Assembly (NCBI RefSeq): GCF_015223065.1
Contig: NZ_JADFBY010000001.1
Location: 62,001 to 126,000, forward strand
Reading direction: 5' to 3'
From: Mucilaginibacter sp. JRF
GTDB lineage: Bacteria; Bacteroidota; Bacteroidia; Sphingobacteriales; Sphingobacteriaceae
Length of the DNA: 64,000 nucleotides
Shown: one piece after another, positions 30,625 to 62,348 of the stretch
How the letters are laid out: each line of letters starts with the position of its first letter
How positions within the stretch are numbered: the stretch's first letter is position 1
Notes under the pieces: generated by a model
The model's input: only the letters and a program-made list of their open reading frames with translations
Told to the model about the DNA's origin: nothing
Databases searched by the model: none
Made by a program: the position numbers and the translations under genes

Positions 30625-30987
30625 ATAGTATCTTATAAAAAGCCAACCATATTAAAAGCACAAACCGTAAATAACCTCTATTACCGGCATCAGAAATGCC
30701 CGGAGCAGCATAAGCCTTGCCAAAGCATAACCTTTCATCGGGCAGGGCGTAGCCGGCAGTTTTTGCTTCTTTTGTCTGCACAAAAGAAGTTAAGGACAGG
30801 TAATGAAGCGATTTTGAGAAGTGCTTTGATTAAGGGTTGTTTTTTAATCATCGTTAGTCTGCTCTTGGGCGCAGGGCCCAGTTACTTTGTCTTAGACACA
30901 AAGTAACCAAAAGTCAAGGTAGAAAAAAACTTCCGCCCACAAGGCCATATTCCCTGGCCCGGTTTTCTGCCAGGCTTACGCGCTTTT
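30625..30987 (-). repeat. C element, copy 1 (inverted)
   Basis: About 360 nt that align, as the reverse complement, with 35112-35493 and 62006-62348 over nearly their whole length. Conserved hairpins include CCTGGC / GCCAGG, GTTACTTTGT / ACAAAGTAAC (30881-30890 with 30898-30907), TGGGC / GCCCA and GGCAT / ATGCC. No frame stays open through all three copies, so it is not a conserved gene. It may be a miniature transposable element or a transcribed structured RNA. Confidence 0.8.
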
Positions 30988-31022
30988 AACCCCTCCTAAA
31001 TCCTCCCCATTGGGAGGACTTA
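30988..31022. repeat. A repeat
   Basis: CCCCTCCTAAATCCTCCCC-type block at the other end of C copy 1. Confidence 0.8.
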
Positions 31023-31031
31023 AAAAACTCT

Positions 31032-31112
31032 TGTCATTTCGAACGAGGTACGAGGAGAAATCTATCGCCAGATTAATAAACGTGTACAGATTTCTCCTTC
31101 GTCGAAATGACA
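31032..31112. repeat. B element
   Basis: Complete 81-nt copy with TGTCATTTCGA / TCGAAATGACA termini. Confidence 0.85.
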
Positions 31113-31131
31113 TAATTATTAAGTAGTATTC

Positions 31132-31166
31132 AAGTCCTCCCCCTCGGGGAGGATTTAGGAGGGGTT
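31132..31166. repeat. A repeat, inverted orientation
   Basis: Reverse-complement copy of the A block, facing the one at 30988. Confidence 0.8.
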
Positions 31167-31183
31167 GTACAAGGGGTAATCTG

Positions 31184-31234
31184 CACATGTTCATTAGCAA
31201 AGCGACAGATTTCTCGCTATCTCTCGAAATGACA
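31184..31234. repeat. B element, right half only
   Basis: Ends in TCGAAATGACA but lacks the left terminus: a truncated or rearranged copy. Confidence 0.7.
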
Positions 31235-31254
31235 ATAATACATTTAAAAACAAA

Positions 31255-31283
31255 AAAGCCCCTCTCCATCAGGAGAAGGGCTT
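31255..31283 (-). terminator. Intrinsic terminator of yidC
   Basis: The stem AAGCCCCTCTCC / GGAGAAGGGCTT (one mismatch, 4-nt loop), followed leftward by six T, lies about 27 nt past the yidC stop. Confidence 0.8.
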
Positions 31284-31309
31284 TGTGAGATAGTTAAGCT
31301 CACGTTTTT

Positions 31310-33115
31310 TTATTTCTTTTTCTGTTGCGCTTGTTGTTGCTGGCGCATCATCTCTTCCAAACGGGCAGAGAAGCCTGATTTTTTCTTTTTGGCATCCTCG
31401 GGCTTGGCTTTATTCTCCTGAATTTTGGCGTGGATCTTTTTATCGTCAACCATTAAACGGATAAGGTATTGCTGACCGAATGTTAACATGTTGGCAAGGA
31501 AGTAATAGTAATTCAAACCTGCCGGGTAGCTGTTCAGCATACCGAAAAAGATAAGCGGTGTAATATAACCGATATACTTCATTTGGCCGGTAGCACCTGA
31601 AAGTTGGTTGTTAAAGTAGGTGTAGATCAGCGTAGAGATGGTCATCAGCAAACACATTAAGCTGATGTGCGTCCAACCGATCAACGGCAGTGGCGAAAAT
31701 GATAGCACTGCATCATAAGTCGATAGATCCTTCATCCACAGGAAGCTCTCGCCACGCAGTTCAAACAAGCTCGGGAAAAAGCGGAAGAACGCGATAACGA
31801 TAGGCATTTGCAGCAATAGCGGCAAACAACCACCCAGCGGATTAACACCTGCCTTTTTGTAAAGCTTTAAATATTCCTGTTGTAATAGCGTAGGGTTATC
31901 TTCACCAACTTTTGTTTTAATCTCATCCATCTCAGGCTTAAGCACACGCATTTTAGCCATTGATAGGTATGATTTATAAGTAAGTGGCGACAATACCACC
32001 TTCAACAAAATGGTAAGGGCCAATATAATTATACCGTAATTCCAGTTAAAGGTGTTAAGCAGGTTAAATATTGGTAATACCGCGAAACGGTTAATGTATT
32101 TAAGCGGTCCCCAGCCCATATCAACCTGATCCTGCAAATCATAACCCTGATCTTTAAGGGTGCTGAAACGGTTAGGGCCAAAGTAGAATTCTAATGGGTA
32201 AACACCGCTTGCATCCTTAGCAACTGCCAAATCGGCCTTCATTTGCTTAACATCGGTTTGGGTATTTACATCGGTATTTACCGCTAATGTAGCCTTATCA
32301 AAACCGGTTTTGCTGATAAGTACGTTCGAGAAAAAGTGTTGCTTGAACGATACCCACTGTACTTTTTTATTATCCTCAATAACGTTCTTCTGCTCATCTT
32401 CACTAACACTCAGGTTGTTAACATTGGCATCAACAAATTTATAGTACACGGTAGAGTACTGGCGCTCCTGCTTCATGTCCTTCTCCTGCTTGTGCAGGCT
32501 GGCCGTCCAGTTAAGGTTTAGCAAACCGTTGTTACCTATCAGGGCATCCATACCGGTAGGCTTAATGCTTAGGTCAAGCTTAAAGCCTTTGTCGGCAAGG
32601 GTGTAAGTGTAGTCAATGTACTGTGTTGGGCTGTAGCTTAAACGCAGGGTTACATTGTTTTTTGAAGCTTGTACCGGTGCAAAGTAAAGCGTAGCCGTGT
32701 TAAAACCACGACCGGCAGCATTTATCGTAGTACCAAAGCTGTTGCCATCGCCATCAAATAAAACAAGGGCCTTTTTATCAAAGGTTTTGTAGCCTTTAAG
32801 CTCTACCGATTCAACTTTACCACCAAGGGTGCTTAAGTCAACTTTAACATCGCTGTTTTCCAGAACAATTTGCTGGGCTTTGCCGGCTATCGCGGCACCG
32901 AACGGGCCTTTCATAGCAGCAGAATCAACAGCCGGTGTTGCAACTGGTGCTGTGCTTTTGGCAACAGCCGATTTTTTGCCGCTTTTTGCTGCCGAGGCAG
33001 CTTCGGTGCGCTCTTTTTCTTTCTTTATTTCTTCTGGCGATGGTTTGATCAGGTAAAACCCGCCAACCATTATCAGCATGATCAGGAATAATCCTGTGAA
33101 TGTATTTCTATCCAT
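31310..33115 (-). CDS. yidC: Membrane protein insertase YidC
   Basis: Inserts and folds inner-membrane proteins with or without SecYEG. The 601 residues match the long Gram-negative type: an N-terminal membrane anchor (residues 5-24), an Ala/Lys-rich linker, a large periplasmic beta domain (about 70-340), and five C-terminal helices beginning near YGIIILALTILLKVVLSPLTYKSY. The tail is rich in Lys and Gln (RQQQQAQQKKK), as expected for ribosome contact. pyrG lies 20 nt upstream on the same strand, so they probably share a transcript. Confidence 0.96.
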   Translation of the reverse strand: MDRNTFTGLFLIMLIMVGGFYLIKPSPEEIKKEKERTEAASAAKSGKKSAVAKSTAPVATPAVDSAAMKGPFGAAIAGKAQQIVLENSDVKVDLSTLGGKVESVELKGYKTFDKKALVLFDGDGNSFGTTINAAGRGFNTATLYFAPVQASKNNVTLRLSYSPTQYIDYTYTLADKGFKLDLSIKPTGMDALIGNNGLLNLNWTASLHKQEKDMKQERQYSTVYYKFVDANVNNLSVSEDEQKNVIEDNKKVQWVSFKQHFFSNVLISKTGFDKATLAVNTDVNTQTDVKQMKADLAVAKDASGVYPLEFYFGPNRFSTLKDQGYDLQDQVDMGWGPLKYINRFAVLPIFNLLNTFNWNYGIIILALTILLKVVLSPLTYKSYLSMAKMRVLKPEMDEIKTKVGEDNPTLLQQEYLKLYKKAGVNPLGGCLPLLLQMPIVIAFFRFFPSLFELRGESFLWMKDLSTYDAVLSFSPLPLIGWTHISLMCLLMTISTLIYTYFNNQLSGATGQMKYIGYITPLIFFGMLNSYPAGLNYYYFLANMLTFGQQYLIRLMVDDKKIHAKIQENKAKPEDAKKKKSGFSARLEEMMRQQQQAQQKKK

Positions 33116-33135
33116 TATTTAAAATCGAACAATAA

Positions 33136-34746
33136 TTAATTCTTGCGGGCATAGGCCAGCGAAGCGGCGACAAAGTTAATAAAAAGTGGGTGCGGATTAG
33201 CAACTGTTGATTTTAATTCGGGGTGAAACTGCGCGCCTACAAAGTATGGGTGATTTTTAAGTTCAACTATCTCAACCAAACCGTTTTCAGGGTTGATGCC
33301 TGATGGTATCATACCCGCTTCTTCGTACTTTTTAAGGTACTCGTTATTGAACTCGTAACGGTGACGATGGCGCTCGCTGATATGTGTTTTTCCGTAGATG
33401 GTTGCCGCTCTTGAGCCCTTTTTCAAATCGCAAGGGTAGGCGCCCAAACGCATGGTACCACCTTTGGCGGTAATGTTTTTCTGCTCCTCCATCATGCTGA
33501 TCACCGGATATTTAGTATCAGGGTTCATTTCGGTACTGTTGGCGCTTTCAAGCTTAAGCACGTTACGGCCAAACTCAACAACCGAACATTGCATACCCAG
33601 ACATATACCGAAGAAAGGTATATTGTTTTCGCGTACGTAACGGATGGCTTCTATCTTACCTTCGAAACCACGCTCGCCAAAGCCCGGTGCAACAAGTACG
33701 CCATGCAGGCCTTTAAGGCGCTCAACGGCATTGCCGGGAGTTAATTGTTCTGAGTGAATGTACTCAACCTTAACCTTACATTCGTTTTTAGCACCGGCAT
33801 GTATAAAGGCTTCGGTAATTGATTTGTAAGCATCTGGAAGTTCAACGTATTTACCTACCAGGCCAATACGCACTTCAGATGTAGGGTTTTTAAGGCGACC
33901 TAAAAAGTCTTTCCAGCTTTCAAGGGCAGGCTCGTTTTTATGCGGAAGTTTGAATTTTGTCAGTACCGTTTTGTCCAGCTGCTCTTTAAGCATCAGCAAA
34001 GGCACGTCATAAATGGTTGATGCATCTATTGATTCAATAACCGCGTTGATGTTCACGTTACAGAACAGGGCTATCTTTTTACGCAGCTCCTGGGTTAAGT
34101 GATGTTCGGTACGGCAAACCAATATATCAGGCTGAATACCATACTCCAGCAACATTTTAACAGAGTGTTGTGTCGGTTTGGTTTTCAGTTCGCCCGCGGC
34201 AGCCAAAAACGGCACCAGGGTAAGGTGAATAACCAGTGAGTTGCTTGAGCCAACTTCCCAGCGGAACTGGCGCACAGCCTCCACAAACGGCAACGATTCA
34301 ATATCGCCAACGGTACCACCAATTTCGGTGATCACGATATCATAATCGCCGCTCTCGCCCAAAATGCGGAAGTTGCGTTTTATCTCGTCGGTTATGTGTG
34401 GTACCACCTGTACGGTTTTGCCCAAAAAGGCACCTTCACGCTCTTTGTTAATAACGTTTTGGTAGATACGGCCGGTAGTGATGTTGTTTGATTGCGAGGT
34501 TGGGGTATTCAAAAAACGCTCGTAATGGCCAAGGTCAAGGTCGGTTTCGGCACCATCCTCGGTAACGTAACATTCGCCGTGCTCATAAGGGTTCAGCGTA
34601 CCCGGATCGACGTTAATATAAGGGTCGAACTTTTGGATAGTTACGCGGTAACCACGTGCCTGTAAGAGTTTAGCTAATGATGCGGAAATAATACCTTTCC
34701 CTAACGACGAAGTAACGCCGCCCGTAACAAAAATATACTTGGTCAT
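33136..34746 (-). CDS. pyrG: CTP synthase
   Basis: Aminates UTP to CTP using glutamine. The 536 residues have the N-terminal synthetase domain ([24 protein letters not shown] with the ATP loop; [18 protein letters not shown]) and the C-terminal class I glutaminase with nucleophile Cys in [15 protein letters not shown] and the His/Glu pair in QFHPELKS. A possible -7 element TACCTTTG on the minus strand (34808-34815) lies about 60 nt upstream, but no clear -33 partner was seen. It is the first gene of the pyrG-yidC pair. Confidence 0.97.
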
Positions 34747-34922
34747 GTTGTTTTTTGAATTTTAGCGACAGTTTTAACCTGCCACCAAATTGTTTGTGTA
34801 CGGGATACAAAGGTAAGAAATTTTAACAGTTTTTTGTGGTTGTTGAGAAATTGGGTGATGTTGAAATGTGCAGGTGTATAATTTATTGGTTGATAGTGGA
34901 GTGGGAATGATTTTTTCAACTT

Positions 34923-34966
34923 TGTCATTCGAGAAATCTGTACGCGTTTATTGTATGGTATAGATT
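34923..34966. repeat. B element, partial
   Basis: Left-half-like fragment (TGTCATTCGAGAAATCTG) that breaks off at the following A repeat. Confidence 0.6.
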
Positions 34967-35002
34967 AACCCCTTCTAAATCCTCCCCGAGGGGAGGACTT
35001 TT
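34967..35002. repeat. A repeat
   Basis: TCCTCCCCGAGGGGAGGA-type palindromic block, the same family as at 30426. Confidence 0.8.
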
Positions 35003-35020
35003 ATGGAACTTTATCAATTT

Positions 35021-35100
35021 TGTCATTTCGACAAAGCAGAAATCTACACGAGTTCATGCTAAGCGAGAGATTTCTCTCTCGTACCTCGTTCGAAATGACA
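35021..35100. repeat. B element
   Basis: Complete 80-nt copy, separated by about a dozen bases from C copy 2. Confidence 0.85.
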
Positions 35101-35111
35101 AAAAGTATAAT

Positions 35112-35493
35112 AAAAAAGCGCGGTGGCCTGGCAGAAAACCGGGCCAGGGAGTATGGCCTTGCGGGTGGAAGGTTTTTTCTGCCTTGATGTTTGGTTACTT
35201 TGCATCTAAGGTAAAGTAACTGGGCTCTGCGCCCAAGAGCAGGCTAACGATAATAAAATACAGCATCTTCATTAAAGCACTTTCACTGCTAATGAGCACA
35301 AGGATGTGCTTTATTGATCGATAGTGGTTGTCACTTTCTTTTTTGCAGAAAAAAGAAAGTAACCAAAGAAAAACTGCCGGCTACGCCCTGCCCGGTGAAA
35401 GTTTGTGCTCTGGCAGGGCTTGTGCTGCTCCGGGCATTTCTGATGCCGGTAATAGAGGTTATTTGCGGTTTGTGCTTTTGGTGCTTAGATATT
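35112..35493 (+). repeat. C element, copy 2
   Basis: Aligns with C copies 1 and 3. The long stem here is GTTACTTTGC / GTAAAGTAAC (35194-35203 with 35211-35220). Bounded left by a B element and right by a variant A repeat. The middle segment (about 35240-35350) differs most between copies. Confidence 0.8.
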
Positions 35494-35527
35494 AATACCC
35501 TCCCCATGGGAGGGTTAGGGAGGGGTT
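35494..35527. repeat. A repeat, variant form
   Basis: Variant A block closing C copy 2, as in copies 1 and 3. Confidence 0.8.
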
Positions 35528-35592
35528 TAGCGAACTATTATTTCCTCTCTATGTCAGTATGCTTTTACTTTTTTAAAGAAACGACACCAATC

Positions 35593-36360
35593 TTACAAAT
35601 TCAACAACTTCAAATCTTCCGGCGTATCAATAGCATGAGTTTCCAGCTCTGTTTCGGCAACTTGTATGCGGTAGCCATTCTCTATCCAGCGGAGTTGTTC
35701 AAGTTTTTCGGCGGTTTCGAGTGATGATACCGGGAGTTTGGTTATTTGCTGCAATACATCGGCACGATAGCCATAGATGCCTATGTGTTTAAAATAGGTG
35801 TGGAATTCCAGCCAGTTCTCAGGTTCTTCGCCGCGCAGATGGGGCAGGGGCGAGCGTGAAAAATATATAGCCTCAGATAGTTTATTGATCACCACTTTGG
35901 GCGAGTTGGTATTCAGCAGCTCCTGCTCGTTTTTTATGCGTTTAACGAGGGTGGCTATTTCGGTTTGGGCATTATCAAAGCAATTCGCCAGCTTGCTAAT
36001 TTGCTCCGGGTCAATATACGGTTCATCACCCTGAATGTTGATGATCACCTGGTACTGCGGGTGTTGTAAGGCTACTTCGGCACAACGGTCGGTGCCACTT
36101 TGGTGGTCACTGCCCGTCATTACGGCGAGGCCGCCAAAGTTGGTAACGTGGTCAAATATGCGCTCATCATCCGTAGCTACCATTATGGCGGCAAGGTCGG
36201 CACATTTGGATGCCTGCTCGTAAACACGCTGTATCATGCTCTTGCCCGCGATGTCAACCAATGGCTTGCCCGGAAATCGGCTCGACGCGTAGCGTGCAGG
36301 TATAATACCAAGAACAGAGCCCCTCCCGGCCTCCCCTGAAGGGGAGGTGATGTTTTGCAT
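35593..36360 (-). CDS. kdsB: 3-deoxy-manno-octulosonate cytidylyltransferase
   Basis: Activates Kdo as CMP-Kdo for LPS synthesis. The conserved protein begins LGIIPARYASSRFPGKPL, and normally a start codon directly precedes it. Here no ATG, GTG or TTG lies in that position: the codons just upstream, reading ITSPSGEAGRGSV, come from an A repeat (36318-36350). The nearest usable start is ATG at 36360, with another at 36378. Other motifs are VATDDERI, TGSDHQSGTDRCAEV, INIQGDEPYIDP and YKHIGIYGYR-like FKHIGIYGYR. A second A repeat fills the gap to the upstream kinase gene. Confidence 0.92.
   Translation of the reverse strand: MQNITSPSGEAGRGSVLGIIPARYASSRFPGKPLVDIAGKSMIQRVYEQASKCADLAAIMVATDDERIFDHVTNFGGLAVMTGSDHQSGTDRCAEVALQHPQYQVIINIQGDEPYIDPEQISKLANCFDNAQTEIATLVKRIKNEQELLNTNSPKVVINKLSEAIYFSRSPLPHLRGEEPENWLEFHTYFKHIGIYGYRADVLQQITKLPVSSLETAEKLEQLRWIENGYRIQVAETELETHAIDTPEDLKLLNL
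36318..36350. repeat. A repeat inside the kdsB 5' coding region
   Basis: CCCCTCCCGGCCTCCCC / GGGGAGG block read in frame as part of KdsB. This is the only A copy within a gene in this window. Confidence 0.8.
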
Positions 36361-36396
36361 ATTTGATATATCGGACATATTTAACAAGATATTATT

Positions 36397-36427
36397 AAGT
36401 CCCCCTTCGGGGGGATTTAGGGGGCCA
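36397..36427. repeat. A repeat touching the kinase stop codon
   Basis: AGTCCCCCTTCGGGGGGA-type block, ending at the base next to the stop of the deoxynucleoside kinase gene (36428). Confidence 0.8.
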
Positions 36428-37042
36428 CTAAAACAACCCGTGTATCTCCCTCTCTATCATCTGCACAATGGTGGCCATATCCTCAGTATTATTGGCAAAG
36501 TCGAGGTTATCCTTATCCAGCACCAGTAGCTTACCGAGTTCATAACCGGTTATCCATTTCTGGTATTTTTCATTCAGTTTTGATAGGTAATCGAGCCTGA
36601 TGCCGCTTTCGTATTCACGGCCACGGCGCTGTATGTTGTTTACCAGCGTGGGTACCGATGCCTTAAGGTAAATCAGCAGATCGGGCGGTTTGATGAACGA
36701 GGTTATATTGTCGAAAATAGAGCGGTAGTTCTCATAATCGCGCGTGGTCATGAGGCCCATATCGTGCAGGTTTTCGGCAAAAATAAAGGCATCCTCGTAA
36801 ATGGTACGATCCTGTATCACATTACGACCGCTCTTTTGTATTTCCAGTATCTGGCGGTAGCGGCTGTTCAAAAAGTATATTTGCAGGTTAAAGCTCCAGC
36901 GTTTCATGTCGCTGTAAAAATCCTCAAGGTAAGGGTTGTTATCAACGGCCTCAAAAAGCGGCTCAAAGCCGTAATTTTTAGCCAGCATTTCGGTGAGGGT
37001 AGTTTTACCGGCTCCTATGTTTCCTACAATAGCAATGTGCAT
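36428..37042 (-). CDS. Deoxynucleoside kinase
   Basis: A 204-residue P-loop kinase of the dCK/dGK (deoxynucleoside salvage) family. The Walker A motif is IVGNIGAGKTTLTEML (residues 4-19). FEAVDNNPYLEDFYSDMKRWSFNLQIYFL contains the catalytic Glu and substrate pocket; QDRTIYEDAFIFA holds the DRS/DRT-type motif. PPDLLIYLKASVPTLVNNIQRRGREYE contains the lid Arg residues. Whether it prefers dA, dC or dG is not clear. It lies between trpS and kdsB on the same strand. Confidence 0.88.
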   Translation of the reverse strand: MHIAIVGNIGAGKTTLTEMLAKNYGFEPLFEAVDNNPYLEDFYSDMKRWSFNLQIYFLNSRYRQILEIQKSGRNVIQDRTIYEDAFIFAENLHDMGLMTTRDYENYRSIFDNITSFIKPPDLLIYLKASVPTLVNNIQRRGREYESGIRLDYLSKLNEKYQKWITGYELGKLLVLDKDNLDFANNTEDMATIVQMIEREIHGLF

Positions 37043-37062
37043 GTGCGTTTGGTGTAGTTAAA

Positions 37063-37155
37063 AGTTCATGGTTGATAGCTCATAGTTCATGAATGATATT
37101 TAAGGCTAAGTTCAAATGCTTAAGGCCATAAGCCATCAACCATTAACTATGAACC
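37063..37155. repeat. Imperfect inverted repeat between the kinase gene and trpS
   Basis: The left arm (AGTTCATGGTTGATAGCTCA) and right arm (CCATCAACCATTAACTATGA) are near complements, about 50 nt apart. It could be a dispersed palindromic element of a different family from A-D. No second copy was noticed in the window. Confidence 0.55.
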
Positions 37156-37233
37156 AATAAATATACACCAACAACCACTAAGTGTCAAAAAAGTTGTAAG
37201 GTATTGCTGTTTAGCAGCGTAACTGGCTTGCCG

Positions 37234-38229: not shown

Positions 38230-38266
38230 AGGGGCGAAAGTAAGAATTTTTATATTTTTGGCATCG

Positions 38267-39001: not shown

Positions 39002-39288
39002 CCATTGATAAAGAAACCGTTGATAAGATAGCTCACCTTGCCCGCCTTGAACTGGCCGATACCGAAAAGCAGGAGCTAATGAAGGACATGAGCCAGATAC
39101 TCGACTTTATGGCCAAACTTAACGAGGTTGATACATCGGGCGTTGAGCCCCTGGTATACATGACCAACGAAGACAACGCCCTACGCGAGGACATAGTAAA
39201 ACAAGAAATAACCACCGAGCAAGGTTTACTAAACGCGCCCAAACACGATGAAAGCCACTTTTTGGTGGCTAAGGTGATTGACCGTTGA
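38998..39288 (+). CDS. gatC: Aspartyl/glutamyl-tRNA amidotransferase subunit C
   Basis: Small stabilising subunit of GatCAB, which amidates mischarged Glu-tRNA-Gln or Asp-tRNA-Asn. The 96 residues match the family: VDKIAHLARLELADTEKQELMKDMSQILDFMAKLNEVDTSGVEPL, then LREDIVKQE. gatA and gatB are elsewhere. It overlaps the acyltransferase gene by 4 nt, so the two are translationally coupled. Confidence 0.93.
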   Translation: MTIDKETVDKIAHLARLELADTEKQELMKDMSQILDFMAKLNEVDTSGVEPLVYMTNEDNALREDIVKQEITTEQGLLNAPKHDESHFLVAKVIDR

Positions 39289-53674: not shown

Positions 53675-53696
53675 GCCCTGTTATGCAGGGCTGTTT
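53675..53696 (+). terminator. Weak terminator-like hairpin
   Basis: The stem GCCCTG / CAGGGC with a 5-nt loop is followed by TGTTTTAT. An alternative partner for CCCTGTT lies upstream at 53609-53615, so it could be switchable. Confidence 0.4.
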
Positions 53697-53771
53697 TATA
53701 AACGTTGAGGTATATAAAGCTGATTTTAATGCACAGTACCCCCTTGGTTAATAAAATACAGTTTTTTAACT

Positions 53772-53810
53772 AAGGCTTTTAAGCAGCGAGTGCTTGGAGC
53801 CTTTTTTATT
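53772..53810 (+). terminator. Strong terminator 60 nt before the hexosaminidase gene
   Basis: A two-part stem AAGGCT...AAGCA / TGCTT...AGCCTT, with loop GCGAG, is followed by seven T. It would end any transcript coming from the left, or attenuate the GH20 leader if the promoter lies further upstream. Confidence 0.75.
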
Positions 53811-53869
53811 TTAAAAATCTACTATATTCACCACATCATAATTATTTAAACAAGTCGTTTTCAAAATTG

Positions 53870-56179
53870 ATGTATAAAAAAATATCGTTACTGCTGCCCC
53901 TTGCCTTTTGTGCTTTTGTAAACCCGATATCTGCCCAAACAACAACCAATACCGATATTAATATTATTCCCGCGCCGGTTTCGGTACGTAAAACTGCCGG
54001 GGAGTTTGTGCTGAGCAGGCAAACCACGCTGCTGGCCGATACTGTAAACAATAAAGCCGTGCAGTTTCTGGCCGATTTTTTAAAGAATCGCGCCATGCTG
54101 AGCATCCAGCCACAGCAAAATAAAGGCAATAATGTAAGCAACAGCATAGTACTTACTTCCGCCGGGACAGAAAACATTCCCGCTGAGGGATACCGCCTCA
54201 CCATCACGCCCGAAAAGGTGACCATAGCCGGTAAAGGGGCCGGGTTGTTTTACGGTATACAATCATTCATCCAGTTGTTCCCTAATGATAGGGCAGGGTC
54301 GGTAAAGCTGCCATCGGTAGTGGTTGATGATTATCCGCGCTTTGGTTATCGTGGCTTTATGCTGGATGTATGCCGCCATTTTTTTACGGTAGAAGCGGTT
54401 AAGAAATACATTGACGTACTGGCTTACTATAAGCTGAACAACTTTCACTGGCATTTAACGGATGATCAGGGTTGGCGCATCGAGATCAAGAAATACCCGA
54501 AGTTAACGCAGGTTGGCAGCCGCAGGGCGCAAACGGTTATAGGCAATTTTCACGACCGTACACCCCAGCAATATGATAACACCCCGCACGGCGGTTATTA
54601 CACGCAGGATGAGATACGCGAGGTGGTTAAATACGCTGCCGACCGTTACATTAATGTAGTGCCCGAAATTGAAATGCCTGGCCATGCCCTGGCCGCCCTG
54701 GCTGCATACCCCGAGTTAAGCTGCGACCCTAATAAAACCTACCAGGTTGCCGAAACATGGGGCGTGTTTGATAATGTTTTTTGCCCGAGTGAAAAAACGT
54801 TTTCCTTTTTACAGGATGTACTTTCGGAGGTTATAGAGCTTTTTCCGAGCAAGTATATTCATGTTGGGGGCGATGAGGTGCCGAAGGAGGCCTGGAAAAG
54901 ATCGGCATTTTGCCAAAAACTTATCCGCGACCTTAAACTGAAGGATGAGCATGGGCTGCAAAGCTACTTTGTACAGCGTATGGAAAAGTTTGTGAACACC
55001 AAAGGCCGCAGCATTATTGGTTGGGATGAAATATTAGAGGGCGGCCTTGCGCCAAACGCTACCGTTATGAGCTGGCGAGGTGAATCGGGCGGTATTGAGG
55101 CGGCGCAGCAAAAGCATAATGTGATCATGACGCCGGGTACCAATGGCCTGTATCTCGATCACGCGCAGGATAAACTTTACCGCGAACCATTCGGCATTGG
55201 CGGTTATGCGCCGCTGGCCAAAACATATAACTATAACCCAACACCGGGCGCGTTAACGCCTGAGCAGCAAAAATATATTATAGGCGTGCAAGCCAACTTA
55301 TGGACGGAGTACATCGGCACCGAAAATAAACTGGAATACATGATGTTCCCGAGGCTGATCGCTCTGTCGGAAGTCGCGTGGTCGCAGTTGGCTAATAAGA
55401 ATTTCATTAACTTTTCGCAGCAGCGCCTGCCGCATCACCTGGCACGACTGGATGAGTTGAAGTACAATTACCGTGTACCCCCGGCAATAGGCGCTACCGA
55501 TACCATTATGTTTGGCTCGCAGCTTTCGGTTAACCTGAAAGCTCCGGTTGCGGGTGCCAAGGTATATTATAATATTGATAGCTATGCTGTGTCTGATAAG
55601 GATATATTGTACACCACGCCCATAACGTACACTGTGCCGCCGGGTCAGTACCGCGATCTGCAAACTATTGTGATTTCGCCATCGGGCAAAAGCAGCAGGG
55701 TTACTAAAGCAACGGTTTACAATATTGGCGCGTTGCCTGCGGTGCCGTTTCAGGGTACGGCAAAAGGCTTAAAGTACCAGGTTTACGCGGGCGCGTTCGG
55801 CAACACCGGGCGTATTGAAAGCGGTGGCTTGTTAGATACCGGCATGGTAAAAACATTTAGTCCGTTATTTTTCAAAAAAGAGAACATCAATTTTGGTGTA
55901 ATTTACAGCGGTTATATTAAAATTGATAACGACGGCGTTTATGGTTTTGCCACCGCAAGCGATGACGGCTCGGTATTATTGATAGATGATCAGCCGGTGG
56001 TTGATAACGATGGCCGCCATAACCTGTATGAACAGGGTGGGGCAGTGGCCTTACAAAAGGGATTTCATAAAATAACGGTGAAGTATTTTAATATCAACCC
56101 ATCGGCTATACTCAGGGTGTACATGACCATTCCGGGTAAACCAAAGGGTGAACTTTCGCCCGAATCAATATTAAACTGA
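53870..56179 (+). CDS. GH20 beta-N-acetylhexosaminidase with PA14 domain
   Basis: Secreted enzyme releasing terminal N-acetylhexosamines. From ATG 53870 (769 residues) a signal peptide (SLLLPLAFCAFVNPISA) leads to a GH20b N-terminal domain, then the GH20 barrel (GYRGFMLDVCRHFF, NNFHWHLTDDQGWRIEI) and the catalytic Asp-Glu pair in HVGGDEVPKEAW (about residues 335-346). The active-site Trp lies in IIGWDEILEGG. A chitobiase-type C-terminal beta segment and a PA14 carbohydrate-binding domain (about 625-760) follow. Likely roles are chitin, glycoprotein or peptidoglycan amino-sugar scavenging. Confidence 0.94.
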   Translation: MYKKISLLLPLAFCAFVNPISAQTTTNTDINIIPAPVSVRKTAGEFVLSRQTTLLADTVNNKAVQFLADFLKNRAMLSIQPQQNKGNNVSNSIVLTSAGTENIPAEGYRLTITPEKVTIAGKGAGLFYGIQSFIQLFPNDRAGSVKLPSVVVDDYPRFGYRGFMLDVCRHFFTVEAVKKYIDVLAYYKLNNFHWHLTDDQGWRIEIKKYPKLTQVGSRRAQTVIGNFHDRTPQQYDNTPHGGYYTQDEIREVVKYAADRYINVVPEIEMPGHALAALAAYPELSCDPNKTYQVAETWGVFDNVFCPSEKTFSFLQDVLSEVIELFPSKYIHVGGDEVPKEAWKRSAFCQKLIRDLKLKDEHGLQSYFVQRMEKFVNTKGRSIIGWDEILEGGLAPNATVMSWRGESGGIEAAQQKHNVIMTPGTNGLYLDHAQDKLYREPFGIGGYAPLAKTYNYNPTPGALTPEQQKYIIGVQANLWTEYIGTENKLEYMMFPRLIALSEVAWSQLANKNFINFSQQRLPHHLARLDELKYNYRVPPAIGATDTIMFGSQLSVNLKAPVAGAKVYYNIDSYAVSDKDILYTTPITYTVPPGQYRDLQTIVISPSGKSSRVTKATVYNIGALPAVPFQGTAKGLKYQVYAGAFGNTGRIESGGLLDTGMVKTFSPLFFKKENINFGVIYSGYIKIDNDGVYGFATASDDGSVLLIDDQPVVDNDGRHNLYEQGGAVALQKGFHKITVKYFNINPSAILRVYMTIPGKPKGELSPESILN

Positions 56180-56203
56180 TTTAAAAAAAACATTGATACA
56201 GCC

Positions 56204-56956
56204 ATGAGCATAAAAACTTATTTGGCCATGCTGCCCTGCCTCGCTATACTTTGCGGCTGTGGCGGCGACGATAAAAAAGCGGAAACAACCGTAAAAAAAA
56301 CCGCTAAACCGGCAATGCCGGCGCCTTTCAGGTACCATAAGCATGTGGAGGTAGCGCCGGGGAATGATTTTGATGTTTACAGCTGGGGCCGCGGGGCTAA
56401 GGATGTAGGCGCGTTGCTCATCCTGCATTCTGATTCGGCGGGTATGAAGTATACCACCACAACCGGCGATCTGGAAGGCTCCATTGTGGATGTTTACAAT
56501 GCCGATATGGATTCCGACGGTAACCCCGAACTGCTGGTTCAGGCCGATGCGAAGGATACCACCAACTTTGTGAACATCTACTCGTTTGAGTTTAATGGCA
56601 ATGACGCCCGCAAGCTCGACTTCCCGAAATTGACCAAAAAGCAACGGCGAGGATATCAGGGTAAGGATAACTTTTATATTAAGGAGGGTAAGTTTATCCG
56701 CGAGTTCCCTATTTACGAGAGTGATAGCATAGGCGCCAAGGCAACAGGTGCCAAGCGGGTGTTTGAGTACGGTTTGCGTGGTAACAGCTTTACCGTTGAT
56801 CAGCTAAGTAAGGATTCCACCGATAAATCGGAACCGGTAGCTGCCGTAAGCCAACCCACGCAGCAGGAAAAGAAAGCATCGGTAAGTAAATCATCTAAAA
56901 AGAAAAGATCGTCGTCATCATCACGCAGAAAAAAGCGCCGCAGGCATCGTAATTAA
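56204..56956 (+). CDS. Putative lipoprotein with basic Ser/Lys/Arg tail
   Basis: A 250-residue protein with a lipoprotein signal (LAMLPCLAILCGCGGDDKK; the lipidated Cys near residue 19 or 21). The middle holds VDVYNADMDSDGNPELLVQADA, an FG-GAP or calcium-loop-like acidic stretch. The last 30 residues are very rich in Ser, Lys and Arg (KKKRSSSSSRRKKRRRHRN), unusual for a lipoprotein and suited to binding polyanions such as LPS or nucleic acid. No family was recognised. It follows the GH20 gene by 24 nt and may be co-transcribed. Confidence 0.7.
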   Translation: MSIKTYLAMLPCLAILCGCGGDDKKAETTVKKTAKPAMPAPFRYHKHVEVAPGNDFDVYSWGRGAKDVGALLILHSDSAGMKYTTTTGDLEGSIVDVYNADMDSDGNPELLVQADAKDTTNFVNIYSFEFNGNDARKLDFPKLTKKQRRGYQGKDNFYIKEGKFIREFPIYESDSIGAKATGAKRVFEYGLRGNSFTVDQLSKDSTDKSEPVAAVSQPTQQEKKASVSKSSKKKRSSSSSRRKKRRRHRN

Positions 56957-57018
56957 GCGCTACGGGCAATATACGGGTTTGTATGGCAGTTTATAATTTG
57001 CACATTTGTAAGTAACAT

Positions 57019-59088
57019 ATGCACTTTATATATCCCGCGTTTTTGTTTGCCTTAGCCTCGCTTGCCATACCGGTTATAGTGCATTTGTACAATTTCAGGC
57101 GGTACCAAAAGGTGCAGTTCAGCAATGTGCAGTTCCTAAAACAATTGCAGGAGCAGCAAGCCTCGCGCCGCAATATTAAGGAGCGTTTAATATTAGCTTC
57201 GCGTTTGTTGGCTTTATTATTCCTGGTGCTGGCTTTTGCAAGGCCATACATCAGCAGGCAGGATGGCGCGGTAGCCGGGCAGCAGCGTAACGTAAGCATA
57301 TTTGTTGATAACTCATACTCCATGCAAACCCTCAACAGCGAGGGCAACCTGCTCGATCAGGCCAAGCAAAAGGCAAAGGAGATAGCCGCCCAATATGGCA
57401 TGAATGATCGTTTTCAGTTGCTCACCCACAATTTTGAGGGCAAACACCAGCGCTTACTTAGTCGCGATGAGTTTTTTGACGCAGTTGATGAGGTAAAGGT
57501 GAGCGGCCAGAACCGTGATCTCAGTCAGATAGTAGCGCGCCAGCAGCAATTACTAAAAAGCAATGCGCCGGGTGGTGGCGATGTTTATATAGTATCTGAT
57601 TTTCAGCGAAATTCATCCATTAATAAAATAATAGGAGCCGATAAAAGCATCAACATTAACCTGATACCGCTAAAGGCCAATAACCTGCCCAACGTAGCGG
57701 TTGATTCCGTATGGTTACTAAGCGCCGTACACAAACCCGGCGACGAAGAAAAGCTGGTGGTAAAGCTCCATAATTATGCGGATCGTGAGGCTACGGGCAT
57801 CCCGCTAAAATTATTCATTAATAAAGAGCAAAAAGCGCTGGCCAGCTTTACCATTGCGCCGCGTGCCACACTTACCGATACACTTACCTTTTCGGGTCTT
57901 AAAGCAGGTTGGCAGCAGGGCGAACTGCAATTGCAGGATAACCCTATCACCTTTGATAACAGCTTTTATTTAGCCTTCAATGTAAGCCCGCAGATGCCGG
58001 TACTCATTATTGATAACGGTACCGAAAATCTATTCATAAAAGCCGCTTTAGGGGCTGATAAATTTTTTAAGGCCGACCGTGTGCCCGAGGGTAATGTTGA
58101 TTATACCGGCCTCAATAAATACGGACTGGTTGTACTTACCGATGTAAAAAGCATATCGGCAGGCCTGGCAAGGGAGTTAGGTGCTTATGTGAAAAAGGGA
58201 AACACCTTAGCCATATTCCCGGCGGTGGATGCAGATGTGGCGAGCTATAAAATATTACTACAACCTTTAGGTGCGGCCTGGCCACAGCGTGTAATAACTA
58301 ACGAGGTAAAGGCATCAAAATTGAACCTGCAAAACCCGTTATTCAGGGAGGTGTTTGATGCCATGCCGCAAAACCCTGATCTGCCATCGGCTAAAAAATA
58401 TTATGATCTGAGTGGTGCAGGGCGGGGCGAAGGTATTATTTCATTACCCGGTGGTGAGGCCTTTTGGTCGGGGTATAAAAATGGTGGAGGTACGGTCTAC
58501 GTATCTGCCGTGCCTTTAAATGATGATTTTAGTAACCTGCAACGCCACGGGCTGTTTGTGCCTGTTTTGTATCGTATAGCTTTGCTTAGCGGTCATGATC
58601 TGCCATTGTTCAACACTTTAGGTAGTGGCGAATCGGTAGAAACGGTACCGTTACGCTCAACAGAAAAAGAAGTATTGAAACTCAGTCGTGATGGTTATGA
58701 GATAATCCCTGATGTTCGCCAGCAGGATGGAAGCACCCGTCTTTACGTGGCCGACCAATTGCAGCAGCCCGGTTTGTACAATCTTAAAAAAGGCGATAGC
58801 ACAGCCGCTATACTGGCCTTTAATGATAACCGTCGTGAATCGGATCTGAGTTATTTTACCCCTGCCGAACTGCAAAAGTTACTGCCATCAAATAGCGGAA
58901 AGGTAATTGGCGCTAACAAGCCGATAGCTTCTGTAATTAATGAGGCAAATTATGATACACAATTATGGAAACTTTGTATAATTTTGGCGTTGATATTTCT
59001 GGCCGCCGAGATCGCGCTCATCAGGTTCTATAAAACCGGTGGTAGCATTGCAGCAAGCCAGGTAACATCAACCCAAACTACTCAATAA
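57019..59088 (+). CDS. BatA-like protein (aerotolerance N-terminal plus VWA-like domain)
   Basis: A 689-residue membrane protein. The N-terminus MHFIYPAFLFALASLAIPVIVHLYNFRRYQKVQFSNVQFL with a second helix (LLALLFLVLAFARPYI) is the two-helix domain of BatA-type proteins. A VWA-like domain follows with the metal-site start IFVDNSYSMQ (DxSxS). A large extracytoplasmic region and a final helix (LCIILALIFLAAEIALIRFY) complete it. No BatB-E or MoxR genes are adjacent, so it is not a classic bat operon. pyrC-like follows 10 nt later. Confidence 0.85.
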   Translation: MHFIYPAFLFALASLAIPVIVHLYNFRRYQKVQFSNVQFLKQLQEQQASRRNIKERLILASRLLALLFLVLAFARPYISRQDGAVAGQQRNVSIFVDNSYSMQTLNSEGNLLDQAKQKAKEIAAQYGMNDRFQLLTHNFEGKHQRLLSRDEFFDAVDEVKVSGQNRDLSQIVARQQQLLKSNAPGGGDVYIVSDFQRNSSINKIIGADKSININLIPLKANNLPNVAVDSVWLLSAVHKPGDEEKLVVKLHNYADREATGIPLKLFINKEQKALASFTIAPRATLTDTLTFSGLKAGWQQGELQLQDNPITFDNSFYLAFNVSPQMPVLIIDNGTENLFIKAALGADKFFKADRVPEGNVDYTGLNKYGLVVLTDVKSISAGLARELGAYVKKGNTLAIFPAVDADVASYKILLQPLGAAWPQRVITNEVKASKLNLQNPLFREVFDAMPQNPDLPSAKKYYDLSGAGRGEGIISLPGGEAFWSGYKNGGGTVYVSAVPLNDDFSNLQRHGLFVPVLYRIALLSGHDLPLFNTLGSGESVETVPLRSTEKEVLKLSRDGYEIIPDVRQQDGSTRLYVADQLQQPGLYNLKKGDSTAAILAFNDNRRESDLSYFTPAELQKLLPSNSGKVIGANKPIASVINEANYDTQLWKLCIILALIFLAAEIALIRFYKTGGSIAASQVTSTQTTQ

Positions 59089-59098
59089 AGCAACGCTG

Positions 59099-60358
59099 AT
59101 GAATTTGCTTATAAAATCTGCCCTCGTATTATATCCCGAATCTGCATTTCATAAAAAAACTGTCGACATTTTAGTTGCCGGTGGCATTATCAAACAAATA
59201 GCCGAAACCATTACCGATGATTCGGCCGAGGTATTTGATGCCAAAGGGGCCGTTATAGCGCCCGGTTTTTTAGATCTTAACTGTAAAATAGGCGAGCCCG
59301 GCCTCGAAACCAAGGAGGATATCAGTACCGGAACGGCCGCGGCCGCAGCCGGTGGTTTTACCGCCCTTGCCCTGATGCCGGCCACACAACCGCCCGTACA
59401 TTCAAAAACGGAGGTTGAATACCTGATCAATCGTGCCAAAGGTAATTTGGTTGATATCTATCCGCTGGGTACCATATCGCACAAGCGTGAGGGTAAAGAC
59501 CTTGCCGAGATGTACGATATGTTTAAAAGCGGCGCAAAAGCCTTTACCGATGCTACCCGCCCCGTGCAGGATGCCGGTTTAATGGAGCGCGCCATGCTTT
59601 ACGCCCACGGTTTTGGCGCCAAAGTATTCTCGTACCCCGAGGATGCCGCTATTGCGGGCAAAGCCAAGGTTAACGAGGGCCACATTAGCACACTGCTGGG
59701 CATGAAGGGCATACCACCCCTTGCCGAGGAGCTGATGATAGCCCGCGATATTTATTTGGCTGAATACACCGATTCAAGCATACATTTTAGCACCATATCT
59801 GCCGGTAGTTCGGTAAAGCTTATCCGCGAAGCAAAAGCGAAAGGCCTTAACGTAACCTGCGATGTAACCGCGCATCACCTGGTATTAACAGACGAGGTAT
59901 TGTTAGGCTTTGATAGCCTGTACAAAGTTAAACCGCCGCTGCGTACCCAAAAAGATATTGACGCACTGCTGGAGGGGCTGGCCGATGGTACCATTGATGC
60001 CATTGTATCGCAACATACCCCGCACGAGATCGAGTTTAAGGATGTAGAGTTTGAAATAGCCGAGTTCGGTATCATCGGTTTGCAGACAGCATTGCCTTTA
60101 GCTGTAAAAGCGGGTTTGTCTGCCGAGGCGATAGTAGAGAAACTGTCCATCAACCCGCGCAAGGTATTATCGGTTGATCTGCCTGTATTAGCCGAGGGCG
60201 AAGCCGCGAACTTTGTGGTGTTTGATACCGAAGCCGAGTGGGAGTATAGCCGTGCTAATAACTACTCAAAAGCGGCCAATTCGCCGTTCATTGGGCAAAC
60301 ATTAAAAGGCAAAGTGTTATTAACCTGTAACAATAACCAATTTTATAAATCAAAATAG
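59099..60358 (+). CDS. Dihydroorotase homologue lacking metal ligands (pseudo-DHOase)
   Basis: A 419-residue amidohydrolase-fold protein of the class I dihydroorotase family, full length and well conserved overall. Metal and catalytic positions are replaced: the HxH after PGFxDL reads LNCK, the metal His before ED reads SYPED, the HVS-type His reads FSTIS, and the TDHAPH catalytic Asp segment reads SQHTPH. Such non-catalytic homologues act as structural partners of aspartate transcarbamoylase in Pseudomonas (PyrC'). A similar role is possible; dihydroorotase activity is unlikely. It belongs to a run with the BatA-like gene and the two genes after it. Confidence 0.85.
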   Translation: MNLLIKSALVLYPESAFHKKTVDILVAGGIIKQIAETITDDSAEVFDAKGAVIAPGFLDLNCKIGEPGLETKEDISTGTAAAAAGGFTALALMPATQPPVHSKTEVEYLINRAKGNLVDIYPLGTISHKREGKDLAEMYDMFKSGAKAFTDATRPVQDAGLMERAMLYAHGFGAKVFSYPEDAAIAGKAKVNEGHISTLLGMKGIPPLAEELMIARDIYLAEYTDSSIHFSTISAGSSVKLIREAKAKGLNVTCDVTAHHLVLTDEVLLGFDSLYKVKPPLRTQKDIDALLEGLADGTIDAIVSQHTPHEIEFKDVEFEIAEFGIIGLQTALPLAVKAGLSAEAIVEKLSINPRKVLSVDLPVLAEGEAANFVVFDTEAEWEYSRANNYSKAANSPFIGQTLKGKVLLTCNNNQFYKSK

Positions 60359-60362
60359 CAAT

Positions 60363-61031
60363 ATGATAGCTCCAAAAGTACAGTCGGCCATTGATGCGGC
60401 TTTAAAGGCATTTAAGCAACATGGCGGTTTTGATGCCACCACGCTTTCGGGCGAGTTTGCAACGGTGTTTTCATCCGACAAAGATTTTTTAGGCAAGGTT
60501 GAATTGTTAGACGGCGTGTTTGACGACAATGCACAGCTTGAACCCCTGCGTGAGGTTTTCTTTGACCTGTTGCTGATCAACTTTTTTAGCGCCGACGTTA
60601 AAAAGCTGGAAGAAGATTACCTTGACAGCCCCGAATGGGCCAAAATTGAGGACGAAACTCTTGACCGTGGTACCGAACTGCTGAATGTACTGTTATACCT
60701 TAACGAGTGTGCCGACGAAGATATTGAACCGGGTTTAGAGGACTACCTGAAAGAGTTTTTGCTGGTTGATGAGGACGAGTTTCAGGACGAGCACCGCATT
60801 TACGAGCCGATAATAGCCAACCAGATATTGGTAGAAGCACCATTTGACGAGATAAAAAAGGTAGCTGAAAAATTGCCTGCCGATTCGGAATTGAAAGAGT
60901 TGTTTTACCCGGTACTTGCCTTTTTTCAGGATATTGAACCATCAGACAGTGTGCGCGAAGCCGTAGCCAAAAGCGCTGTTGATGCCGAATTTGATGTGCC
61001 TGTTTACGAGATATTAATCAACTTTAAATAA
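60363..61031 (+). CDS. Acidic hypothetical protein
   Basis: A 222-residue, strongly acidic (many Asp/Glu), helical, soluble-looking protein with no signal peptide or membrane segment. No family recognised. Repeated Leu/Glu patterns (LEEDYLDSPEWAKIEDE, LNECADEDIEPGLEDYLKEFL) suggest a helical-repeat fold. It starts 4 nt after the dihydroorotase homologue and 19 nt before the DUF4199 gene, so it is part of that operon. Confidence 0.75.
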   Translation: MIAPKVQSAIDAALKAFKQHGGFDATTLSGEFATVFSSDKDFLGKVELLDGVFDDNAQLEPLREVFFDLLLINFFSADVKKLEEDYLDSPEWAKIEDETLDRGTELLNVLLYLNECADEDIEPGLEDYLKEFLLVDEDEFQDEHRIYEPIIANQILVEAPFDEIKKVAEKLPADSELKELFYPVLAFFQDIEPSDSVREAVAKSAVDAEFDVPVYEILINFK

Positions 61032-61050
61032 ACCTTAAACTATTATAATT

Positions 61051-61611
61051 ATGGCAGATCAGGTAAAATCGCCAACCTCGGTAGCTACCAAGTGGGCGTT
61101 AATCTACACTTTATTCTCAGTTATCCTTACTTATGCTTTTGATGCGATGGGATTGGCGCAAGAATCGCCGGTACGTTATTTAAGCATGGCTTTATTGATC
61201 GCGTTCATCTTGTTAACGCAAAAGGAATATCGTGATGTACAAGGTGGTTTTATAACTTTCGGTAAGGCCTTCTCTGTAGGTTTCCGTTTTGCTGTATTTG
61301 CAGGTTTGTTGGGTGCATTATTTGTATTTCTTTACACCAAAGTATTAGCTCCGGATGTTTTTGCACGATCACTTGATAAAGCTGAAAGTGATATGATAGA
61401 AAAAGGTATGACCGATGAGCAAGTTGAAACTGCTATGAACATCACCCGTAACTACGGCCAAATTATAGGCGCTTTCTTCGCTGCCATTGGTACAGCGGTA
61501 ATAGGTGCGATTGTAAGTTTAATAGGTGCAGCCATCTTCAAAAAAGAACGTTCACCATACGATTTTGATGATGCGGTAGTAGCTACCGATAAAATTGATC
61601 CAACAGCATAA
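61051..61611 (+). CDS. DUF4199 membrane protein
   Basis: A 186-residue protein with four membrane helices (about residues 14-30, 42-58, 75-96 and 134-158), the DUF4199 layout common in Bacteroidota. The short loop QKEYRDVQGGFITFGKAFSVG between helices two and three is characteristic. Function unknown; the family often sits next to glycosyltransferase or dihydroorotase-like genes. It is the last gene of this run and is followed by a terminator. Confidence 0.85.
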   Translation: MADQVKSPTSVATKWALIYTLFSVILTYAFDAMGLAQESPVRYLSMALLIAFILLTQKEYRDVQGGFITFGKAFSVGFRFAVFAGLLGALFVFLYTKVLAPDVFARSLDKAESDMIEKGMTDEQVETAMNITRNYGQIIGAFFAAIGTAVIGAIVSLIGAAIFKKERSPYDFDDAVVATDKIDPTA

Positions 61612-61631
61612 TTATTTAACGATATTATATT

Positions 61632-61658
61632 AAGCGCTCAATTGGGCGCTTTTTTTAT
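61632..61658 (+). terminator. Intrinsic terminator of the DUF4199 gene
   Basis: The stem AAGCGC / GCGCTT around CAATTG-like sequence is followed by TTTTTTT, about 20 nt after the stop codon. Confidence 0.8.
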
Positions 61659-61692
61659 GGAGTTAAGATTGGTTTAAACGATACCGAAAACT

Positions 61693-61760
61693 TGTCATTT
61701 CGAGCGGTAGCGAGAAATCTGGTCGCGTTCAATTGCAAGGCGAGAGATTTCTCCTCGTAG
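61693..61760. repeat. B element interrupted by an A repeat
   Basis: The left TGTCATTTCGA end is intact. The right end stops at CTCCTCGTAG, where an A block begins, so the terminal repeat is missing. Confidence 0.7.
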
Positions 61761-61797
61761 AACCCCTCCTAAATCCTCCCCGAGGGGAGGACTTTTA
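61761..61797. repeat. A repeat
   Basis: CTCCCCGAGGGGAGG-type block inside or replacing the right end of a B element. Confidence 0.8.
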
Positions 61798-61802
61798 ATA
61801 AT

Positions 61803-61884
61803 CACGTCATTGAGGTACGAAGCAATCCCCGAGCGTCTTGTCTTAAAGTATATCCTAAAGAGATTGCTTCGTACCAATGACGTG
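61803..61884. repeat. D element hairpin
   Basis: 82 nt with arms CACGTCATTG-x-GGTACGAAGC and the matching GCTTCGTACC-x-ATGACGTG around a 35-nt centre. It resembles B in size and plan but not in terminal sequence. Only one copy was seen. Confidence 0.7.
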
Positions 61885-61899
61885 TTTTTTATTCTTTTT

Positions 61900-61980
61900 T
61901 GTCATTTCGACGAAGGAGAAATCTGTACGCATTCATTAATCAAGCGATAGATTTCTCCTCGTACCTCGTTCGAAATGACA
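61900..61980. repeat. B element
   Basis: Complete 81-nt copy 25 nt before C copy 3. The same B-then-C order occurs at 35 kb. Confidence 0.85.
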
Positions 61981-62005
61981 ATTTTTATTTTTAGGAGGAT
62001 TTGAA

Positions 62006-62348
62006 AAAAAGCGCGTCGGCCTGGCAGAAAACCGGGCCAGGGAGTATGGCCTGTGCGGATGAAGGTTTTTTCTGCCTTGATGTTTGGTTACTTTGCATCT
62101 AAGGTAAAGTAACTGGGCTCTGCGCCCAAGAGCAGACTGACGATAATAAAAATACAAACGCTCAATAAAGCAAAGTTCATTACCTGTCCTTAACTTCTTT
62201 TGAGCGATCAAAAGAAACAAAAATCGCCGGCTACGCCCTGCCCGGTGAAAGTTTGTGCTTTGGCAAGTCTTGTGCTACTCCGGGCATTTCTGATGCCGGG
62301 AGGATAGGTTATTTATGGTTTGTGCTTTTGTTTTGTGGATTAATACTA
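62006..62348 (+). repeat. C element, copy 3
   Basis: Aligns with copies 1 and 2. The long stem is GTTACTTTGC / GTAAAGTAAC (62087-62096 with 62104-62113). It shares a CATTACCTGTCCTTAACTTC segment with copy 1 that copy 2 has lost. A remnant of an A block (TTAGGAGGATTTG) precedes it. Confidence 0.8.

Follow-up and report, generated by a model that had tools for sequence, protein, structure and literature searches.

The locus and the repeat family

The window analyzed here, a stretch of 64,000 nucleotides (nt) from the genome of Mucilaginibacter sp. JRF, holds three copies of a structured repeat, each built of a 5' half (D1) and a 3' part (D2). Comparison of the copies with one another and with their relatives shows that compensatory changes preserve base pairing among the copies of this genome, across the genus and from one phylum to another. 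The three window copies are as follows.

30654..30987, minus strand: element copy 1 (D1 at 30856-30984), between pyrF (orotidine 5'-monophosphate decarboxylase) and a putative gene that we take to be yidC
35112..35480, plus strand: element copy 2 (D1 at ~35112-35258, a variable linker, D2 at ~35330-35480), between a putative gene that we take to be pyrG and a cytidylyltransferase gene
62005..62330, plus strand: element copy 3 (D1 at 62010-62138), between a DUF4199 gene and a YkuD gene

An earlier note on this DNA had described three such copies from the letters alone. They are real, aligning end to end with 29 others to give 32 copies from the same genome; their places were given correctly, but their outer limits were set 13-29 bases too far out. 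The count of three is right for the window, whereas copy 2 used as a DNA query finds 41 matches in the 4.9-Mb genome, of which two are one copy (L038) and one (L007) is D2 only. The search of the genome and its relatives that the note had proposed was also run with a covariance model of D1 only (R1, from alignment A1 below). R1 likewise gives 41 matches in the own genome, although the two lists overlap incompletely, R1 adding a place absent from the DNA list. Counting the own genome in each case, R1 has matches in 58 of 61 sampled genomes of the genus and, at E≤1e-4, detects D1 in 91 of 151 from the order; strong matches (E≤3e-12) include L181, L197, L224 (M. conchicola) and L206 (Mucilaginibacter sp.). 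The distribution is patchy, with the exact D2 core in 7 of 395 Bacteroidota genomes, again including the own one.

No Rfam family reaches its gathering score anywhere in the window, and the Rfam matches for one window stretch and two further loci all lie far under the gathering scores. No description of the element was found in the open-access literature, searched among other ways by core sequence words: three papers containing the longer core words are, to judge by their titles, unrelated, and among the 30 listed of 298 with shorter words no title concerns bacterial repeats; insertion sequence databases and preprints lay outside that search, and the element may already bear a name somewhere. 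Descent from a decayed coding gene was considered and rejected, the three mechanical open reading frames (ORFs) over the copies and one adjoining them having no Pfam match at E≤0.1.

Structure and covariation of D1 and D2

The paired regions and the conserved core, with coordinates in copy 2, are these.

35131-35138 GCAGAAAA with 35175-35182 TTTTCTGC, plus strand: D1 helix P1, whose two variable pairs match in 39 of 39 own copies
35183-35188 CTTGAT with hairpin loop 35204-35210 ATC(T)AAG, plus strand: D1 pseudoknot, covarying
35194-35203 with 35211-35220, plus strand: D1 hairpin of the pseudoknot
35222-35225 with 35231-35234, plus strand: D1 hairpin P5 (GGGC/GCCC or GGCC/GGCC)
35227-35230 CTGC with 35239-35242 GCAG, plus strand: loop pairing of P5 in D1
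35330-35344 with 35349-35363, plus strand: D2 hairpin
35345-35348 GCAG with 35374-35377 CTGC, plus strand: D2 loop pairing
35352-35372, plus strand: 21-mer within D2 that recurs across phyla
within 35377..35449, plus strand: D2 helix P7 (CCGGC/GCCGG)
35389-35395 TGCCCGG with 35430-35436 CCGGGCA, plus strand: D2 helix P8

Alignment A1 joins the 39 own D1 copies with 17 from the same genus; it keeps 56 of 71 extracted rows, three of them trimmed, the 15 left out having a non-standard 5' part or being truncated or duplicate. The D1 model comprises six helices, three of which are pairings of a loop with a strand outside it, and 97.0% of its cells in A1 are paired. Changes on both sides occur in 16 of 38 pairs, against a mean of 7.2 after shuffling and 1-9 in slid versions of the structure, and the covariation score is 0.196 against 0.086 (shuffled) and at most 0.054 (slid), the slid control being one that favors structures derived from the same sequences. 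The covariance model and larger alignment that the earlier note had called for thus give D1 covariation in excess of the controls. The best-supported covariation lies mostly in pairings absent from the note's list, namely GGCAGAAAA/TTTTCTGCC, the pairing of CTTGAY to the loop of the hairpin, CTGC/GCAG, and GCGAY/RTCGC.

The central stem, with its change from T-A to C-G and from G-C to a G-T wobble, is as the note described it. Its inner dinucleotides in the 39 own copies read GC/GT in 19, GT/AC in 16, the intermediate GT/GC in two and CG/GG, which is broken, in two; the D1 stem is broken in L013 and L025. As to the further hairpins that the note had listed as kept, TGGGC/GCCCA does covary, but CCTGGC/GCCAGG is broken in five own copies reading CCTGCCGG and GGCAT/ATGCC hardly varies. 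The arms of P1 take the variant form CCGGAAAA/TTTTCCGG in 5 of the 39 own copies, and one P1 pair is GC in 35, AU in 12, CG in six and UA in three rows of A1. Helix 1 (GGCCTG/CGGGCC), which crosses P1, has no double change in A1, so the case for the pseudoknot at P1 comes from P1 alone. The variable outer/loop pair of D1 is retained in 36 and the inner pair of P5 in 38 of the 39 own copies; the main variants of these two pairs occur there in all four combinations with partners retained and hence do not reflect one single inherited event.

On the D1 strand 90 cells are G-U and 14 are A-C, a surplus that hints at a strand preference, albeit mostly through two column pairs, which contribute 70 of the 90. 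Folded as RNA, the window copies are stabler than shuffles (z -4.1, -3.7 and -2.3), and the same holds for copy 2 read from its other strand (z -4.5).

For D2, alignment A3 (41 of 42 rows; type-Y copies, copies with a 53-nt insert and L031 excluded) has 13 of 25 pairs altered on both sides, against 6.4 when shuffled. The D2 loop pairing is weaker, being formed in 80% of cells with further pair types barely above shuffles (29 of 500 reach the count); it is lost through an insertion in L008, and the D2 stem of window copy 3 contains a single mismatch. The whole of P8 is replaced by TTTAATTTTC/GAAAATTAA in the five type-Y copies, which lie elsewhere in the own genome. In four own copies (L027, L030, L033 and L034) an inserted module of ~53 nt (ACCTTAGCGATAGC...) separates the D2 hairpin from the strand that pairs with its loop.

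One module, inverted, across phyla

The reverse complement of D1 shares the layout of D2, i.e. a hairpin, a CCAAA linker, a loop partner and a further stem, and copy 2 holds a 12-base inverted repeat (TTTGGTTACTTT / AAAGTAACCAAA). Judged by sequence and layout, D1 and D2 represent a single module, with hairpin arms GTTACTTT/AAAGTAAC, in opposite orientations. The 21-mer of D2 (AAAGAAAGTAACCAAAGAAAA) occurs in at least 119 stretches of GTDB genomes; the matches listed come from Bacteroidota, Proteobacteria, Selenomonadales, Ignavibacteriae and others, and most of the stretches inspected by eye have a matching hairpin. Among the exact 21-mer matches listed, 88 places with a full tail were parsed. 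In 51 of these the loop pairs, over at least four bases, with the sequence that directly follows the 21-mer (mean 11.3 and maximum 22 in 500 shuffles), and these 51 use 27 loop words, some nested in others. Within the first 14 bases, pairing reaches four bases at 63 places and five at 40, compared with 19 and one for the next 14 bases as control.

R1 derives from this genus alone. At E≤0.01 it matches 13 of 23 chosen loci, including Thiobacillus (~1e-5), Niastella (7e-5), Filimonas (0.001), and Segetibacter and Lysobacter (0.004-0.009); in L195, from Thiobacillus, both strands are matched. R1 has no match at the other ten of the 23, which include three from Mucilaginibacter and those from Selenomonas, Selenomonadales, Silvimonas and Methylobacter. 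The 21-mer is also present in 24 stretches of viral contigs; a viral origin was rejected, since among those inspected by eye only L305 and L306 have the hairpin.

Inverted pairs and gene-carrying units in relatives

Modules lying less than 700 nt apart in the GTDB loci are inverted in 16 of 20 cases, with the hairpins outermost (the '+-' arrangement) in 13. At 0.7-6 kb the pairs are six '+-', five '-+' and one '--', and with such mixed orientations a single long pair is weak evidence. The inverted end in L109 is perfect over 36 bp. A 167-bp end from L190 served as query for 18 genomes, all reached through the loci and all positive. Pairs were typed from 85 of 92 matches in ten genomes, eight of them named Proteobacteria (six unlisted matches and one second piece of an end were left out). 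There, all 29 of the 29 listed neighbor pairs under 3 kb are '+-' with hairpins outermost, and the units fall into two sizes, 458-680 bp (16 units) and 1,092-2,233 bp (13 units). In the listed rows of the other eight genomes, read by eye, the one same-contig pair under 3 kb (G608:C213) is on the same strand and reads as two pieces of one end.

There is little between the ends of the short units. All 13 long units, from six genomes, enclose one or two ORFs. The 14 cargo ORFs examined have no mutual BLASTP similarity at E≤0.01. Four of them rise above Pfam cut-offs (RelA_SpoT; CAP12/PCTIR TIR; GmrSD_N with HNH; CoiA_N), and three match PADLOC models at E≤1e-5, i.e. PDC-S33 (the RelA/SpoT cargo), PDC-S35 (the TIR cargo) and NsnA (over a 60-residue stretch only); one further ORF matches PDC-S32 at 0.003. 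The G+C fraction is 0.42-0.54 for the 14 cargo ORFs, whereas the eight flanking genes measured lie at 0.58-0.68. Of ten flanking genes, nine exceed a Pfam cut-off, e.g. DNA polymerase A. In two genomes a unit lies beside polA, L428 (G600:C79) and L430 (G601:C316); these two align through the right end into the flank beyond it (76% over 1,032 bp) and carry unrelated cargo, which makes this side of polA a possible site of cargo exchange. The unit at 1014-2203 of L424 has overlapping ORFs of 186 and 210 aa that may form a two-gene cargo; neither is matched by Pfam, PADLOC or NCBIfam.

Within the genus, L044 is a '+-' unit with D1 as its right end and an ORF of 179 aa with a G+C fraction of 0.34, for which nothing was found above the Pfam cut-off and no PADLOC match; the long pairs L061 and L126 have no clear cargo. 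The second match in L148 sits among seemingly chromosomal genes and is probably due to chance.

Placement and movement in the genus

Thirty-seven own copies have an ORF to either side; 19 of them lie in convergent, 13 in tandem and five in divergent gaps, whereas 10 of the 53 adjacent ORF pairs in the window are convergent; the tandem-gap copies point in the same direction in eight cases and in the opposite direction in five. For this count, mechanical ORFs of at least 90 aa over the midpoints of 9 of 39 copies were taken as spurious, and two copies lack a flanking ORF on one side. Sites were compared over 1.2 Mb of a relative, G109, which is ~85.6% identical over the pyrG-yidC region. Seven own sites have both flanks there: three are empty in G109 (L018, L026 and L028) and two share the element (L005 by R1 match, L030 by sequence); L022 and L007 were counted as neither. 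The site of copy 1 is without the element in G109 (115 nt compared with 783).

The arrangement of the modules also differs between genomes. L030 is D2-D1 in G109 and D1-D2 in the own genome. Of 45 D1 copies from other members of the genus and family, 26 have no partner within 600 nt, 17 have one upstream (D2-D1) and one has a clear partner downstream, downstream matches at a distance of 93-94 being the hairpin's own arm. The window copies have no cargo, and their ends are permuted: they run D1-D2 with the hairpins inside, whereas most paired relatives run D2-D1 with the hairpins outside. In G093 a tandem array adjoins yidC, on the same side as window copy 1 and in the opposite orientation; pyrF is absent from the G093 stretch examined.

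Such data bear on the strongest alternative, namely that the repeat is a chromosomal functional RNA maintained for a host function, e.g. a 3'-untranslated-region element acting as an exonuclease block or a transcription terminator. The covariation of D1 and D2, the G-U surplus in D1 and the frequency of convergent gaps would all suit an RNA, but tandem settings show no clear orientation preference, the element is missing at the three orthologous G109 sites, its distribution is patchy and no Rfam family matches at gathering score; we regard this explanation as rather unlikely. A mobile DNA element is favored over a host RNA by the copy number, the weak orientation preference, the sites that are empty in a relative, the tandem arrays and the relatives that carry genes. 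The earlier note's preference for an RNA or DNA structure over junk agrees with the covariation in the larger alignment and across phyla; its functional RNA gives way to a mobile DNA element as the favored form.

Neighboring repeats

The note had each copy bounded on one side by a variant A block, which holds in part, B-type CCTCCC blocks also adjoining copies. A-type palindromic repeats (TGTCATTTCGA ... TCGAAATGACA) lie near every window copy (30484-30563, 31032-31112, 35021-35100, 61693, 61900-61980 and 62407-62489), and B-type blocks (CCTAAATCCTCCCC and CCCTCCCTAACCCTCCC) stand beside the copies at 30433, 30593, 30995, 31146, 35508, 61768 and 62362. Outside the window, an A-type block at L028 is interrupted by a B block, an arrangement that suggests nested insertions. 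Another palindromic repeat (GTACGAAGCAATC) occupies 61815-61874 and is presumably of a kind common in many bacteria.

Comparison with known systems

Inverted doublets of a palindromic module with a variable spacer, intergenic and many per genome, recall REPINs (hairpin-forming doublets of repetitive extragenic palindromic sequences, REPs) and bacterial interspersed mosaic elements. Spread by a REP-associated tyrosine (RAYT, Y1) transposase would explain the doublets, the spacer and the preference for convergent gaps, and REPs are reported mostly between unidirectional and convergent ORFs in PMC3733652, which also describes GTAG/CGTC repeats. However, the module here is larger, has loop-outside pairing and encloses ORFs in some relatives; the Y1 family PF01797 is missing from the own genome and from its three closest sampled relatives, which are rich in copies, and none of the 12 Y1 loci examined (of 34 matches, in other genus and family members) has the module. 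The Y1/RAYT route is contradicted for the own genome and these three relatives, and a REPIN-like origin is in our view very improbable. Still less credible is the view that these are neutral palindromes without selection on the fold, their arms matched by template-switch (quasipalindrome) repair, which can indeed produce paired changes: loop-outside pairings, which are not palindrome arms, covary across phyla and in D1 helices 3 and 6, and D2 has a whole-helix X/Y replacement.

Mobile insertion cassettes consist of a passenger gene between inverted ends, have no transposase of their own and end in short repeats of known transposon families. PMC5444012, for example, is concerned with them. The 13 gene-carrying units in six genomes are similar in holding passenger genes between inverted ends without a transposase, no transposase domain being found by Pfam among 15 cargo ORFs. 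The window copies, by contrast, hold no gene, and the similar end regions are ~100-230 bp long, with covarying pseudoknots, and are so far not tied to a known transposon family. An integron cassette, which has an attC site and an integrase, was set aside solely on the attC consensus. Miniature inverted-repeat transposable elements are likewise short, ORF-less and multi-copy with inverted ends, but the ends of the window copies are permuted; the ends here are also under structural covariation, no target-site duplication signal was seen at the uncertain boundaries, and no parent transposon was found among the top 15 gene clusters near the modules or, by Pfam, in the 15 cargo ORFs. Hairpin ends and pseudoknots are known in mobile elements from IS200/IS605-type ends and omega/HEARO RNAs, from which the present element differs in having no Rfam gathering match and no Y1 transposase beside its modules at the 12 Y1 loci. 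The MRSC-65-2 motif, a repeat thought to be selfish, is likewise structured and reaches dozens of copies in single genomes of diverse phyla (PMC11109978); unlike the present element it is a single long stem with a UYCCGG repeat, and the available part of that source mentions no pseudoknot.

Discussion

Taken together, the results make it probable that this repeat is a mobile DNA element or gene cassette, non-autonomous and with ends that form pseudoknots. Each end would comprise the GTTACTTT/AAAGTAAC hairpin, a CCAAA-rich linker and the loop-pairing strand, together forming an H-type pseudoknot, and then a variable stem. A recombinase or transposase acting in trans may recognize the folded end, as one DNA strand or, less likely, as RNA, and move the unit with or without cargo; such recognition would select for intact folds. 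The permuted, empty window copies may most simply have been left by recombination in tandem arrays.

Several observations weigh against this reading. The mobility of the units is inferred from sequence comparison, no movement having been observed directly, and in the own genome the units are permuted and none was found with cargo. The target-site duplications that the earlier note had proposed to look for gave no signal around 32 copies (mean longest shared flank word 3.81, compared with 3.71 and a maximum of 4.09 when shuffled), the boundaries being uncertain. No candidate enzyme emerged from the Y1 searches described above, nor was there a clear recurrent partner gene beside modules in the GTDB loci (526 neighboring ORFs, top 15 clusters); a fixed partner was rejected, the largest cross-locus clusters being spurious frames over the module and a nine-locus cluster whose example is, by eye, an ABC-transporter ATPase. 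Thirteen of 32 GTDB neighbor pairs are not '+-' (7 of 20 below 700 nt, 6 of 12 at 0.7-6 kb), 2 of 18 compared '+-' pairs have no BLAST similarity between their ends, and the left flanks of the two polA-side units do not align. Pfam leaves eight of the 14 cargo ORFs without a family, and for 10 of the 14 there is no matching PADLOC model at E≤0.01.

Beyond a mobile element with pseudoknot-forming ends, it is conceivable, although we think it on balance doubtful, that the units form an undescribed pan-bacterial class of cassettes with single, partly defense-type genes and folded single-stranded pseudoknot ends, moved in trans via a circular or single-stranded intermediate and exchanging cargo between like ends. 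Such an intermediate would also explain the tandem arrays and the circularly permuted copies.

Repeats of this kind are easily dismissed as intergenic junk. If their ends are recognized as a fold, they would represent a widespread mobile system through which single genes spread, candidate anti-phage genes among them, and the end sequences would provide a handle with which to find more such genes. The covarying pseudoknots make the fold hypothesis directly testable by paired mutations.

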